Assembly: GCA_028866435.1 (NCBI GenBank) | Contig: JAGWIC010000025.1 | Location: 1-37,399 of the forward strand | Direction of reading: 5' to 3' | DNA from: Lysobacteraceae bacterium | GTDB lineage: Bacteria > Pseudomonadota > Gammaproteobacteria > Xanthomonadales > Rhodanobacteraceae | Length of the DNA stretch: 37,399 nt | Shown here: positions 9,792-24,878 of the stretch, one piece after another | How the letters are laid out: each line of letters opens with the position of its first letter | Position numbering within the stretch: the first letter of the stretch is position 1 | The notes under the pieces: generated by a model | Databases searched by the model: none | Told to the model about the DNA's origin: nothing | The model's input: the letters and a program-made list of their open reading frames with translations, nothing else | Made by a program: the position numbers and the translations under genes

Positions 9792-9805
9792 TGACAGCGC
9801 TGTCA
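9792..9805. promoter_or_regulatory. LacI-type operator, palindrome TGACAGCGCTGTCA (copy 1)
   Basis: A perfect 14-bp palindrome, extendable to 16 bp (ATGACAGCGCTGTCAT, 9791-9806), with the central CpG typical of LacI-family sites. It lies between the divergent halogenase and TonB-dependent receptor genes, 67 bp upstream of the receptor start. Identical copies occur upstream of the GH3 gene and the sugar porter gene. Confidence 0.85.
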
Positions 9806-9813
9806 TTTCGGTT

Positions 9814-9827
9814 TGATAGCGCTGTCA
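9814..9827. promoter_or_regulatory. LacI-type operator, TGATAGCGCTGTCA (tandem copy with one mismatch)
   Basis: A near-copy of the 9792 site with one base changed in the left arm (C to T). The two centres are 22 bp apart, about two helical turns, so two dimers could bind on the same face of the DNA. It ends 45 bp before the receptor ATG. Confidence 0.75.
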
Positions 9828-9872
9828 TCGAAAGACTAACGCAGGTTCACGACGATTTGGGGAGAGGGTGAA

Positions 9873-12290
9873 ATGAAACTACGCTACTCGGCGCTGTACG
9901 TCGCCATGACCGCCATATTTGCCGCCGGTGCGGTACATGCCACCGGGCAAGGGGCAAACACGCGGGACGCAAAAAGGGCGGCGGCCGCGAAAAAGGTCCA
10001 GAGCCTGGACACGGTCGTGGTCACCGCGACCAAGCGATCCACGCCACTGCAGAAAACCGGCGTCGCGGTCACCGCCATCGGTGGCGACACGCTCGACAAG
10101 GAGCGCGTCATGACGGTGCAGGACATCACCAAGCTGGTGCCCGGCTTCGAGGCCACCACCGAGGGCGACCATGACGTCATCACCCTGACCATGCGCGGTA
10201 TCGGCAACGACAGCGCCAAGACCGAATACGCCGACCCGGAAGTGGCGGTGTTCGTCGACGGCGTCTACGCCCCCCGCGCCGAGGCCGCCGCCGGCCTGTT
10301 GCTGGATATCGACAATGTCGAGGTGCTGCGCGGCCCGCAGGGCACGCTGTGGGGTCGCAACTCCACCGCTGGCGTGGTCAATTTCGAGACCGGCAAGCCG
10401 GATCTGGGCAGCTTCTACGGCAATGCCCAGCTCGAGGCCGGCAACTACGGCCACGTGGGCACGCGGGCCACGGTCAACCTGCCGATCAGCAGCACCTTCG
10501 CCCTGCGCGTGGCGATGGCGCAGGAACAGCACGACGGCTACGTGAAATACCAGGACCCGTCCAGCCAGTTGCCGAGCATCGCCCAGCAGCAGGCCGCCTA
10601 CCTCGCCAGCGGCGGCAGCCTGGCGAGCTTCCAGTCGATCAACCCCAGCGACTACGTGACCGCCGGCGCCAGGTACGGCGCGCAGAACCAGGCGGCCAGC
10701 CGCATCAGCGCGCTGTGGCAACCCAGCGACGCGTTCAGCTGGAACCTGTCCTACGAGTATTTCCGCGACCGCGGCACGCCGAGCATGAGCCTGATGCAGA
10801 CACCGCGCGCCGGCCAGCAGTTCTGGTCGGCGCTGATCGACACCGCACCCTATCTGCGGCGCGATTCGAACACGGTCCGCAGCCGCATCGACTACAAGAT
10901 CGGCGACGCGATGATGCTGAGCTACATCGCCGGCTTCAACCACTTCACCGGGCAGGGCAATTTCGACCAGGACATGGGCGTGCAGGTGCCCACCAGCTTC
11001 ACCACCGGGGCGTCCTCCCAGGCCGACCGCACCAACAACTCCAACTACCGCAGCAACAGCCAGGAAGTGGACCTGAAGTCGACCGGCGACAACACGCTGG
11101 ACTGGATCCTCGGCCTGTACTACTCCGCCGAGAACAACAGCATCCGCTTCGACATCCCGATCCTCAACGGCACCACCCAGGGCACGATCGGCTGGCAGGG
11201 CTCGTTCATCCAGCCGAAGGAGACCGTCAAGTCGACGGCCGCGTTCGGCCAGGCCACGTGGCATGTCACCCACGGCTTCCGGCTGACCGCCGGCGCGCGC
11301 CTGTCCAGGGACGTGAAGGAGAACATCGGCGGCATCAACTGGGCCTGGGCCTATGACCCGACGGTGCCGCAGGTGGCGATCGCCACCGACGTCAGCCCCG
11401 GCGCGGCCAACGGCTTCGCCGTATCCACCTTCAACTCGGCGCGCTACAGCAAGAGCCAGTCCACCTGGCTGCTGCGCGCGGATGCGGACCTGGGCACGAA
11501 CGGGCTGATCTACGGCAGCGTGTCCACCGGCTACAAGTCCGGCGGCACCCAGGATGGCGGCGCGCTGTACAAGCCGGAAACCCTGACCAACTACGAGGTC
11601 GGCACCAAGTTCAGCTACCTCGGCGGCCACCTGACCTGGAACAGCGCGGTCTATTACGAGCAGTTCAAGAACTTCCAGCTGGCGGCACCGATCACCTACA
11701 CCAACGGCAACCTCGGCCTGGGCTTCTCCAACGTCGGCGGCACCACCAAGGTGCTGGGCTTCGAATCCGAGCTGGCCTACCAGGGGCAGAACGATCGCCT
11801 GAACCTGGTCTTCAACGCGATCCCGAAGAAGCAGCTCGGCACCCTGCTGTACGCGGGCAGCAACGACTACCAGGGCCTGCCCGCCTGTGCGCCGGCCTCC
11901 GGCATCGGCACCTGCATGAACATCAGCGGCAACACCCTGCCGCATGCGCCGAACTTCTCGCTGACCTCGATCTACGAGCACGACTTCCACCTGCCCAATG
12001 GCGGCCGCCTCACGCCGCGGCTGAGCGCCCAGTACCAGAGCGCGCAATGGCTGAGCACCTTCAACCTCGGCCCCGGCGACATGCAGAAGGCCTATGTCCG
12101 CGAAGACGTCTCGATCCGCTACACCGAGCCGCAGGACCGCTGGTGGGTCGGCGCGTACATGCAGAACGTCGGCAACGACCGCATCCGCACCAGTGCCGGC
12201 CGGTTCTCGATGCCCAACGGCAGTTTCGAGTACGTCTCGCAGTACCTGCCGCCACGCACCTATGGCGTCAACGTGGGGGTGTGGTTCTGA
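9873..12290 (+). CDS. TonB-dependent outer-membrane receptor
   Basis: An 805-residue TonB-dependent transporter. The ATG follows GGGGAGAGGGTGAA, a strong ribosome binding site. Residues 1-23 are a signal peptide (cleavage after VHA). A TonB box DTVVVTA is at 46-52. The plug domain (about 55-170) contains VLRGPQGTLWGRNSTAG. A long 22-strand-type beta-barrel follows and ends in the outer-membrane signature VNVGVWF with terminal Phe. There is no N-terminal signalling (STN) domain. The family imports siderophores, cobalamin or oligosaccharides. Here the shared operator with a GH3 glycosidase and a sugar porter argues for an oligosaccharide (inference). It is divergent from the halogenase and followed by a clear intrinsic terminator, so it is probably monocistronic. 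Confidence 0.95.
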   Translation: MKLRYSALYVAMTAIFAAGAVHATGQGANTRDAKRAAAAKKVQSLDTVVVTATKRSTPLQKTGVAVTAIGGDTLDKERVMTVQDITKLVPGFEATTEGDHDVITLTMRGIGNDSAKTEYADPEVAVFVDGVYAPRAEAAAGLLLDIDNVEVLRGPQGTLWGRNSTAGVVNFETGKPDLGSFYGNAQLEAGNYGHVGTRATVNLPISSTFALRVAMAQEQHDGYVKYQDPSSQLPSIAQQQAAYLASGGSLASFQSINPSDYVTAGARYGAQNQAASRISALWQPSDAFSWNLSYEYFRDRGTPSMSLMQTPRAGQQFWSALIDTAPYLRRDSNTVRSRIDYKIGDAMMLSYIAGFNHFTGQGNFDQDMGVQVPTSFTTGASSQADRTNNSNYRSNSQEVDLKSTGDNTLDWILGLYYSAENNSIRFDIPILNGTTQGTIGWQGSFIQPKETVKSTAAFGQATWHVTHGFRLTAGARLSRDVKENIGGINWAWAYDPTVPQVAIATDVSPGAANGFAVSTFNSARYSKSQSTWLLRADADLGTNGLIYGSVSTGYKSGGTQDGGALYKPETLTNYEVGTKFSYLGGHLTWNSAVYYEQFKNFQLAAPITYTNGNLGLGFSNVGGTTKVLGFESELAYQGQNDRLNLVFNAIPKKQLGTLLYAGSNDYQGLPACAPASGIGTCMNISGNTLPHAPNFSLTSIYEHDFHLPNGGRLTPRLSAQYQSAQWLSTFNLGPGDMQKAYVREDVSIRYTEPQDRWWVGAYMQNVGNDRIRTSAGRFSMPNGSFEYVSQYLPPRTYGVNVGVWF

Positions 12291-24712: not shown

Positions 24713-24785
24713 TGCGTCTCCCCCAACGTCATGGCGTTTAGTTGTTCGTTCCCGATTCTGGGTTGCCACGGCAGCGCTGTCCGGT

Positions 24786-24799
24786 TGAATACGTATGCA
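24786..24799. promoter_or_regulatory. Second operator type, TGAATACGTATGCA (copy 2)
   Basis: Identical to the site at 18214 over 15 bases (TGAATACGTATGCAT). It lies 74 bp upstream of the sugar porter start. With the other operator 65 bp further upstream, this promoter can be read by two regulators. Confidence 0.75.
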
Positions 24800-24864
24800 T
24801 GATCCCGCACCGGCGCCAGGACTGAGCTTGCCCGCTGGTCGCGGCGCGTCACCGGCGACGGTTG

Positions 24865-24878
24865 TGACAGCGCTGTCA
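24865..24878. promoter_or_regulatory. LacI-type operator, palindrome TGACAGCGCTGTCA (copy 3)
   Basis: A perfect 14-bp match to the sites before the TonB-dependent receptor and GH3 genes. It lies 153 bp upstream of the sugar porter. It is also 90 bp past the stop of recQ, which points the other way, so the sugar porter is the only sensible target. Confidence 0.8.

Follow-up and report, generated by a model that had tools for sequence, protein, structure and literature searches.

The 37,399 bp window analysed here (contig JAGWIC010000025.1 of the Lysobacteraceae bacterium assembly GCA_028866435.1, family Rhodanobacteraceae) carries genes for a TonB-dependent receptor (TBDR), a halogenase-family protein, a GH3 glycoside hydrolase, a sugar porter, and two LacI-type repressors, LacI-1 and LacI-2, and it raises the question of which repressor controls which genes, and through which sites in the DNA. 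In all likelihood, two parallel LacI regulons, one for beta-glucan and the other for alpha-glucan, converge in this soil bacterium on one glucose-type porter provided with two operators. LacI-1 (17085–18098) most likely acts on one of these, named here site A, as judged from its distribution among related genomes, and the other, site B, is most likely read by LacI-2 (22117–23139). In this species and some of its close relatives, the sugar-import gene appears to have predicted landing sites for both repressors. The coordinates of all the features are collected in Table 1.

Site A in the window and in the genome

Site A is a 14 bp palindrome, TGACAGCGCTGTCA, present in three exact copies in the window (9792–9805, 17020–17033, and 24865–24878), along with a copy showing one mismatch, TGATAGCGCTGTCA, at 9814–9827. 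All four are intergenic and show the traits of operators of LacI-type regulons, namely a palindrome of about 14 bp with a central CG, located upstream of the target genes. The four copies correspond to three promoters, the halogenase-family and receptor genes sharing the tandem pair 9792/9814. According to a first-order Markov estimate, 0.0003 exact copies would be expected per window and 0.025 per genome. The scan of the own genome (G000; 3,083,087 bases in 128 contigs, 89.4% complete) with up to one mismatch retrieved these four matches only, and the control, in which the pattern was read backwards, gave none. When up to three mismatches were allowed, the window showed 6 matches versus a mean of 2.79 in shuffled sequences, with 11 out of 100 shuffles reaching 6; the count at this threshold is not unusual in itself, and the strength of the signal lies in the exact copies. 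These data agree with an earlier note on this DNA, which had reported the three exact copies and the one at 9814 as intergenic, had regarded three chance copies of a 14-mer as unlikely, and had asked for a genome-wide scan; with up to one mismatch, such a scan has now found no copy elsewhere.

A look-alike with three mismatches at 24769..24782 is very probably no operator. It is part of a CCGGACA block, and it was rejected as a fifth operator because this block follows site B also in genomes where A is absent.

Site B and the starch-type genes

Reading of the intergenic stretches revealed a second motif, TGMATACGTATKCA (site B), seen as TGAATACGTATGCA on the plus strand, at positions 18214 and 24786. 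With up to one mismatch, five copies were found in the own genome, these two plus three on contig C72. Two divergent arrangements are present there. In one, with B sites at 7129 and 7321, an alpha-amylase gene is oriented away from a TBDR gene and a halogenase gene; in the other, with a B site at 14631, another halogenase gene is oriented away from an alpha-amylase and a GH31 alpha-glucosidase gene. Two halogenase-family genes thus lie beside B sites on this contig. The presence of these starch-type genes indicates that B marks a starch or maltodextrin regulon. Along with its three B sites, the C72 locus as a whole (L010, 5391–18766) encodes one TBDR and one GH31 enzyme, in addition to two halogenase-family proteins and two alpha-amylases.

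Two predicted operators in the porter promoter

Both sites are present in the promoter of the sugar porter of the window, A at 24865 and B at 24786. A search for porters of at least 75% identity located 34 places, and of the 30 promoters that were read, all contained B (29 of them in exact form) and seven contained A. The composite pattern of A, 60–90 bases, and B, searched in a way that detects exact copies only, occurred in 12 out of the 233 family genomes, and each of these 12 was from the own genus (12 of 45). In the 34 genomes of this genus with a porter, B was exact in every promoter, whilst A was present in 12; here, one promoter was considered per genome, the second copy in G262 not being included, and G157 and G262, with identical coordinates, were counted as one genome. 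LacI-1 was encoded in 21 of these 34 genomes, and A was found at the porter in 12 of the 21 versus none of the 13 lacking LacI-1 (P 0.0006, with no correction for kinship). Sister genomes that lack LacI-1 showed an unrelated sequence upstream of B, with no decayed A in it (best 4–6 mismatches), whereas the B part and the sequence following it stayed alike. This pattern fits a modular upstream element carrying A, which would come and go with the beta-glucan locus. The promoters suggest that the porter belongs to both regulons, with B as the constant part and A as the variable one.

The alternative that survives best is that the A copy at the porter is a passive remnant or a chance copy, the porter being under LacI-2 alone. 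We regard it as unlikely, even if the constancy of B, the lack of A in 22 of the 34 genus promoters, the location of the A part 152 bp upstream of the start, and the low power of the kinship-corrected test would all be compatible with it. A remnant does not sit well with an A that was exact in 12 of 12 dual promoters despite diverged flanks, although these were retrieved by the composite pattern, which sees exact copies only. Nor were there any near-misses in the A-less porter promoters read, the best of which had 4–7 mismatches, and in no case was A seen at the porter without LacI-1 (0 of the 13 genus genomes mentioned above).

Several results tell against the reading of two regulons that converge on the porter. 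Nine of the 21 LacI-1-bearing genus genomes have no A at the porter, which makes the link between LacI-1 and the porter an optional one. On the porter tree, A requires 5 changes and LacI-1 requires 6; among 5 independent pairs differing in LacI-1, A changed along with LacI-1 in 2–3 and against it in none (median P 0.25). The association between LacI-1 and A at the porter is not significant once kinship is removed, with too few pairs. In addition, no sigma-70-like promoter was detected at 24690–24990 or at 9700–9900.

Two particular cases were observed. The porter promoter of L262 has its usual B downstream, and in addition a AATACGTATT core, similar to the one in site B, immediately adjoining site A. 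The metagenome-assembled genome G157/G262 has two porter copies, on contigs C26 and C31, one of them 100% identical to the window protein and the other 87%, which may reflect either a mixed bin or a true duplication.

Probable readers of the two sites

The pairing of sites and repressors was analysed in a sample of 147 family genomes from 26 genera, in which a match of at least 65% identity to LacI-1 was taken as an ortholog and absence was the complement of the list of matched genomes. Exact site A was found in 52 of the 53 genomes with a LacI-1 ortholog versus 10 of the 94 without it, and exact site B in 100 of the 106 genomes with a LacI-2 ortholog versus 0 of 41 without it. This is the co-occurrence of site and repressor across genomes that is characteristic of a LacI-type regulon. 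The cross-associations were weak, with P 0.06 for A and LacI-2 and P 0.10 for B and LacI-1. The link held, with few exceptions, inside the genera that showed both states (10 for LacI-1 and 7 for LacI-2), including the own genus, where A was present in 6/6 genomes with LacI-1 versus 0/5 without it. Three of the exceptions were genomes lacking LacI-1, in genera g13 (two) and g14 (one); another was in g19, and a further one was the LacI-1 genome G137 of g22, described below. The repressors have been lost separately across genera, each taking its operator along, and this makes the pairing of operator and reader unusually certain for an assignment made from sequence alone.

The recognition helices are also in accordance with two specificities. 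The second variable position was K in 54/54 rows of LacI-1 type, as well as in 8/8 rows from genus g24, whereas the LacI-2 rows showed Q followed by A or S (18/18). Two LacI specificity pairs result, the K helix with CAGCGCTG and the QA helix with AATACGTATT-like cores. In G245, the LacI-1 gene is partial.

A different assignment, in which LacI-2 or some other LacI paralog of the genome would recognise site A and LacI-1 would be a bystander, is very improbable. LacI-2 does lie closer to the porter than LacI-1, and the own genome encodes further paralogs, on contigs C119 (48% identical to LacI-1) and C44 (43% identical to LacI-2). However, in the 12 genomes with LacI-1 and without LacI-2, exact A was kept in all 12 and B was found in none, and in the 65 genomes with LacI-2 and without LacI-1, B was detected in 59 and exact A in 10, B thus tracking LacI-2 alone. 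As for the paralogs, exact A was present in only 4 of the 29 family genomes whose best match to LacI-1 was a paralog of 47–58%. On this dissociation and these counts, LacI-2 and the other paralogs were rejected as readers of A.

The assignment of site A to LacI-1 and of site B to LacI-2 is not free of discordant cases. Ten of the 94 genomes without a LacI-1 ortholog at 65% hold exact A; among these, G034 has a match of 60%, G077 has a partial gene of 66%, six belong to genus g24, where the loci read show an A-bearing gene beside a LacI of 37–39%, and the remaining two are G049 and G040. Conversely, G137 (genus g22) encodes LacI-1 and has copies of A with one mismatch only, and six genomes with LacI-2 lack exact B. 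Moreover, the genome sets behind the different counts overlap. Among the 46 related loci described below, nine contained LacI-1 but neither GH3 nor TBDR within the DNA retrieved, and in some of the corresponding genomes (e.g., G013/G180) a second LacI of 57–59% lies beside a pair of site A and GH3, so that paralogs may share the reading of site A there.

In G013/G180 (loci L028/L074/L117), two LacI-1-like genes were observed; the one of 70% has no GH3 gene nearby, and the one of 58% is next to the pair of site A and GH3. In genus g24 (loci L011–L015 and L017–L019), pairs of A-like sites about 200 bp apart were seen beside a LacI 37–39% identical to LacI-1, with the helix VSAKTVSR; this protein may represent another, distantly related LacI that shares the operator of LacI-1.

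Placement of site A in related loci

The search for related loci yielded 76, of which 46 (L041–L086, with 69–89% LacI-1 identity) were used; the 30 distant ones (23–41%) were left out, except that L088, L090, and L102 were kept for the comparison of recognition helices. The named records among the 46 were mainly from Rhodanobacter, Luteibacter, and Dyella. These loci contained 83 exact copies of A, none of them inside matched genes: 36 preceded GH3, 29 preceded the TBDR, 17 lay between the halogenase-family and TBDR genes, and one preceded the porter. Site A preceded GH3 in all 37 loci holding this gene (36 exact, 1 with one mismatch) and the TBDR in 35 of 36, or 35 of the 35 readable ones, as the promoter in L082 lies beyond the fetched stretch. 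A halogenase-family gene accompanied the TBDR in 32 of these 36 loci. An exact A was located directly in front of 11 of the 33 halogenase-family genes, and most of the others are downstream of the TBDR on the same strand. Tandem pairs of A, spaced 21–24 bp, were found in 17 cases. The idea that the palindromes are stem-loop terminators or another repeat element, to which a weak terminator-like stem at 9786–9803 (1 found, 0.2 expected) could be related, has a negligible probability and was rejected on the tandem pair, the placement of 83/83 copies upstream of genes, and the co-occurrence with the repressor.

No site A was found within 350 bp upstream of lacI-1 in any of the 46 related loci, and autoregulation of lacI-1 through site A was therefore rejected.

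Strict upstream placement, together with the co-occurrence in the 147 genomes, supports the proposal of the earlier note that the LacI at 17085–18098 would be the reader of site A, and with it the core of its claim, that the receptor, the halogenase, the GH3 enzyme, and the sugar porter belong together in one LacI-type regulon. What did not stand was the idea of a single operator: the second regulon, that of site B and LacI-2, had been overlooked, the porter appears to be in both, and the four sites described represent three promoters.

Proposed mechanism

From the sites observed, their positions, their conservation, and their co-occurrence with the repressors, we infer binding, repression, and the sugars sensed as follows; binding, release, and sugar identity are probably those suggested by the protein families and the reported relatives. 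When there is no glucan signal, LacI-1 and LacI-2 would sit on their operators. LacI-1 bound to A would silence the TBDR and halogenase-family genes (9792/9814), the secreted GH3 enzyme (17020), and the porter (24865). LacI-2 bound to B would silence the glycoside hydrolase and transporter genes from 18403 on, the porter (24786), and two B-bearing promoter regions of C72, one serving the alpha-amylase and the TBDR plus halogenase, and the other serving the second halogenase and the alpha-amylase plus GH31 genes.

A beta-glucan-derived sugar would release LacI-1, allowing the synthesis of the receptor, the halogenase-family enzyme, the exo-glucanase, and the porter. Cellobiose or beta-glucan is a candidate for this signal, as suggested by the exo-1,3/1,4-beta-glucanase to which the GH3 enzyme is related. 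Oligosaccharides would then pass the outer membrane, GH3 would free glucose, and the porter would import it. In a similar way, a maltodextrin-type sugar would release LacI-2, and the starch enzymes, their receptor, the transporter of the major facilitator superfamily (MFS), and the same porter would be made. Both programmes could release glucose outside the inner membrane, with one two-operator porter serving both. If A lies, as it may, on a separate upstream promoter of the porter, either signal may suffice.

A broader proposal can be made only tentatively, and we hold it with less than even confidence: in a set of genomes of the Rhodanobacter group, the glucose-type porter could be a two-input node, at which the starch operator stays and an upstream element bearing the operator of LacI-1 appears and disappears together with the beta-glucan locus and its repressor. 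The halogenase-family enzymes could be working, sugar-controlled parts of glycan uptake in both programmes rather than of secondary metabolism, in view of their genes accompanying the TBDR in related loci and lying beside B sites on C72.

Comparison with known systems

A regulon design of this type has been described in Shewanella, where two LacI-type regulators, BglR and MalR, each have sites at a TBDR and a glucose permease, and also at beta-glucosidases in the case of BglR and at alpha-glucosidases in that of MalR (PMC2996990). The window matches by homology the target set of BglR type (beta-glucan or beta-glucoside hydrolase, TBDR, and glucose permease). However, Shewanella is reported to possess a separate glucose porter for each regulon, the paralogs GlcP-Bgl and GlcP-Mal, which share 67% identity, in contrast to the single porter with both operators predicted here, and the main text of that paper does not contain the word halogenase, whereas halogenase-family genes are present here in both programmes (PMC2996990).

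Taken together, LacI-2, the 18403 and 20589 genes next to it, and contig C72 resemble, in gene content and order only, the starch system XAC2595–XAC2602 of Xanthomonas citri, with a LacI regulator, an MFS transporter, a TonB-dependent transporter, and GH13 enzymes (PMC10714752). That system includes a protein of 780 residues that bears an amylo-1,6-glucosidase-like motif and has no GH family assigned to it, and the 18403–20592 protein looks like the unassigned XAC2598, a likeness by description only; the passages on the starch system give no operator sequence (PMC10714752). Both halves of the present system also resemble the carbohydrate utilization (CUT) loci of Xanthomonas, a maltose locus included, in which a TBDR, secreted enzymes, an inner-membrane sugar transporter, and a repressor are found together; the main text of that article lacks the word halogenase, and its relevant passages show no motif like A or B (PMC1790865). 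As in a CUT locus, the TBDR, hydrolase, inner-membrane transporter, and regulator are clustered here and predicted to be co-regulated.

In the LacI-family regulons of RegPrecise, operators are palindromes with a central CG, and double sites at 21–22 bp are attributed to cooperative binding of two dimers, which the 22 bp pair of A resembles; the main text does not contain the term Xanthomon (PMC4052901). In the open-licence literature, the string TGACAGCGCTGTCA matched a site in a single paper, a designed cre site for CcpA (PMC10992428). The same literature gave no result for the full-length listed variants of site B, or for a halogenase in combination with TBDR and LacI, with Xanthomonas, or with bromination.

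Sugar loci under LacI regulons are common. The present system differs from the known ones in the single porter with two predicted operators and in the constant halogenase-family gene, neither of which was found described in that literature. The alpha- and beta-glucan programmes would meet at one porter through its two operators, and because the second operator varies among close relatives, this regulatory rewiring is directly testable. That both programmes consistently include a halogenase-family gene under predicted sugar repressors poses a functional question.

Genes of the window

Both repressors contain the LacI helix-turn-helix (PF00356) and a sugar-binding domain (PF13377/PF00532), all above the Pfam cut-offs, and LacI-1 scores below every NCBIfam LacI equivalog cut-off. 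The closest solved structure to the GH3 enzyme is the exo-1,3/1,4-beta-glucanase 3usz (E 2.1e-221). The 8162–9769 protein, with 2pyx as nearest solved structure, belongs to the Trp_halogenase fold family and conserves GxGxxG (GGGTAG at residue 26). At residue 292, it shows WTWDIG, with a final G instead of the P of WxWxIP, a motif of flavin-dependent tryptophan halogenases.

Table 1. Genes and predicted operators of the window.
Feature	Position	Strand	Basis or remark
Flavin-dependent halogenase family protein	8162..9769	-	Trp_halogenase PF04820, E 1.5e-128, 430 bits; start may be 9724
TBDR	9873..12290	+	Plug and beta-barrel; signal peptide; TonB-box-like SLDTVVV
A operator 1 (predicted), exact	9792..9805		Between halogenase and TBDR genes; window scan and placement in relatives
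A operator 2 (predicted), one mismatch	9814..9827		22 bp from operator 1, tandem pair; spacing in relatives
ClC channel gene	12530..14377		No site A or B in front; left out of regulon
GH3 exo-1,3/1,4-beta-glucanase-like enzyme	14402..16963	-	GH3 N, GH3 C, Exop_C; signal-peptide-like N-terminus
A operator 3 (predicted), exact	17020..17033		Upstream of GH3; 37/37 related loci holding GH3
LacI-1, most likely reader of site A	17085..18098	-	Pfam LacI and Peripla_BP_3; helix VSPKTVSRVLN
B operator (predicted)	18214..18227		Between lacI-1 and gene at 18403; exact in 15/15 related loci holding that gene
(alpha/alpha)6-type glycoside hydrolase-like protein; predicted B regulon	18403..20592	+	Bac_rhamnosid6H E 1.6e-07, weak GDE_C
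MFS transporter, sucrose/maltose (GPH-like) type; predicted B regulon	20589..22055	+	
LacI-2, most likely reader of site B	22117..23139	-	Helix VSQATVSRALRGS; start may be 23190
Sugar porter (XylE/GlcP/GLUT type), in both predicted regulons	23291..24712	-	TIGR00879 362 bits, cut-off 237.8
B operator (predicted), TGAATACGTATGCA on + strand	24786..24799		Upstream of sugar porter; exact in 34/34 genus porter promoters
A operator 4 (predicted), exact	24865..24878		Upstream of sugar porter; 12/34 genus porter promoters, all in LacI-1-bearing genomes
recQ	24968..26803	-	

Downstream of the halogenase-family gene and on the same strand lies a gene for a PAS/GAF/GGDEF/EAL protein (5042–8032), with no site A or B of its own in the scans made. 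The 18403–20592 protein gave weak Pfam matches alone (Bac_rhamnosid6H, MGH1-like, and GDE_C), and it was found conserved at 71–85% in 13 relatives, always behind site B.

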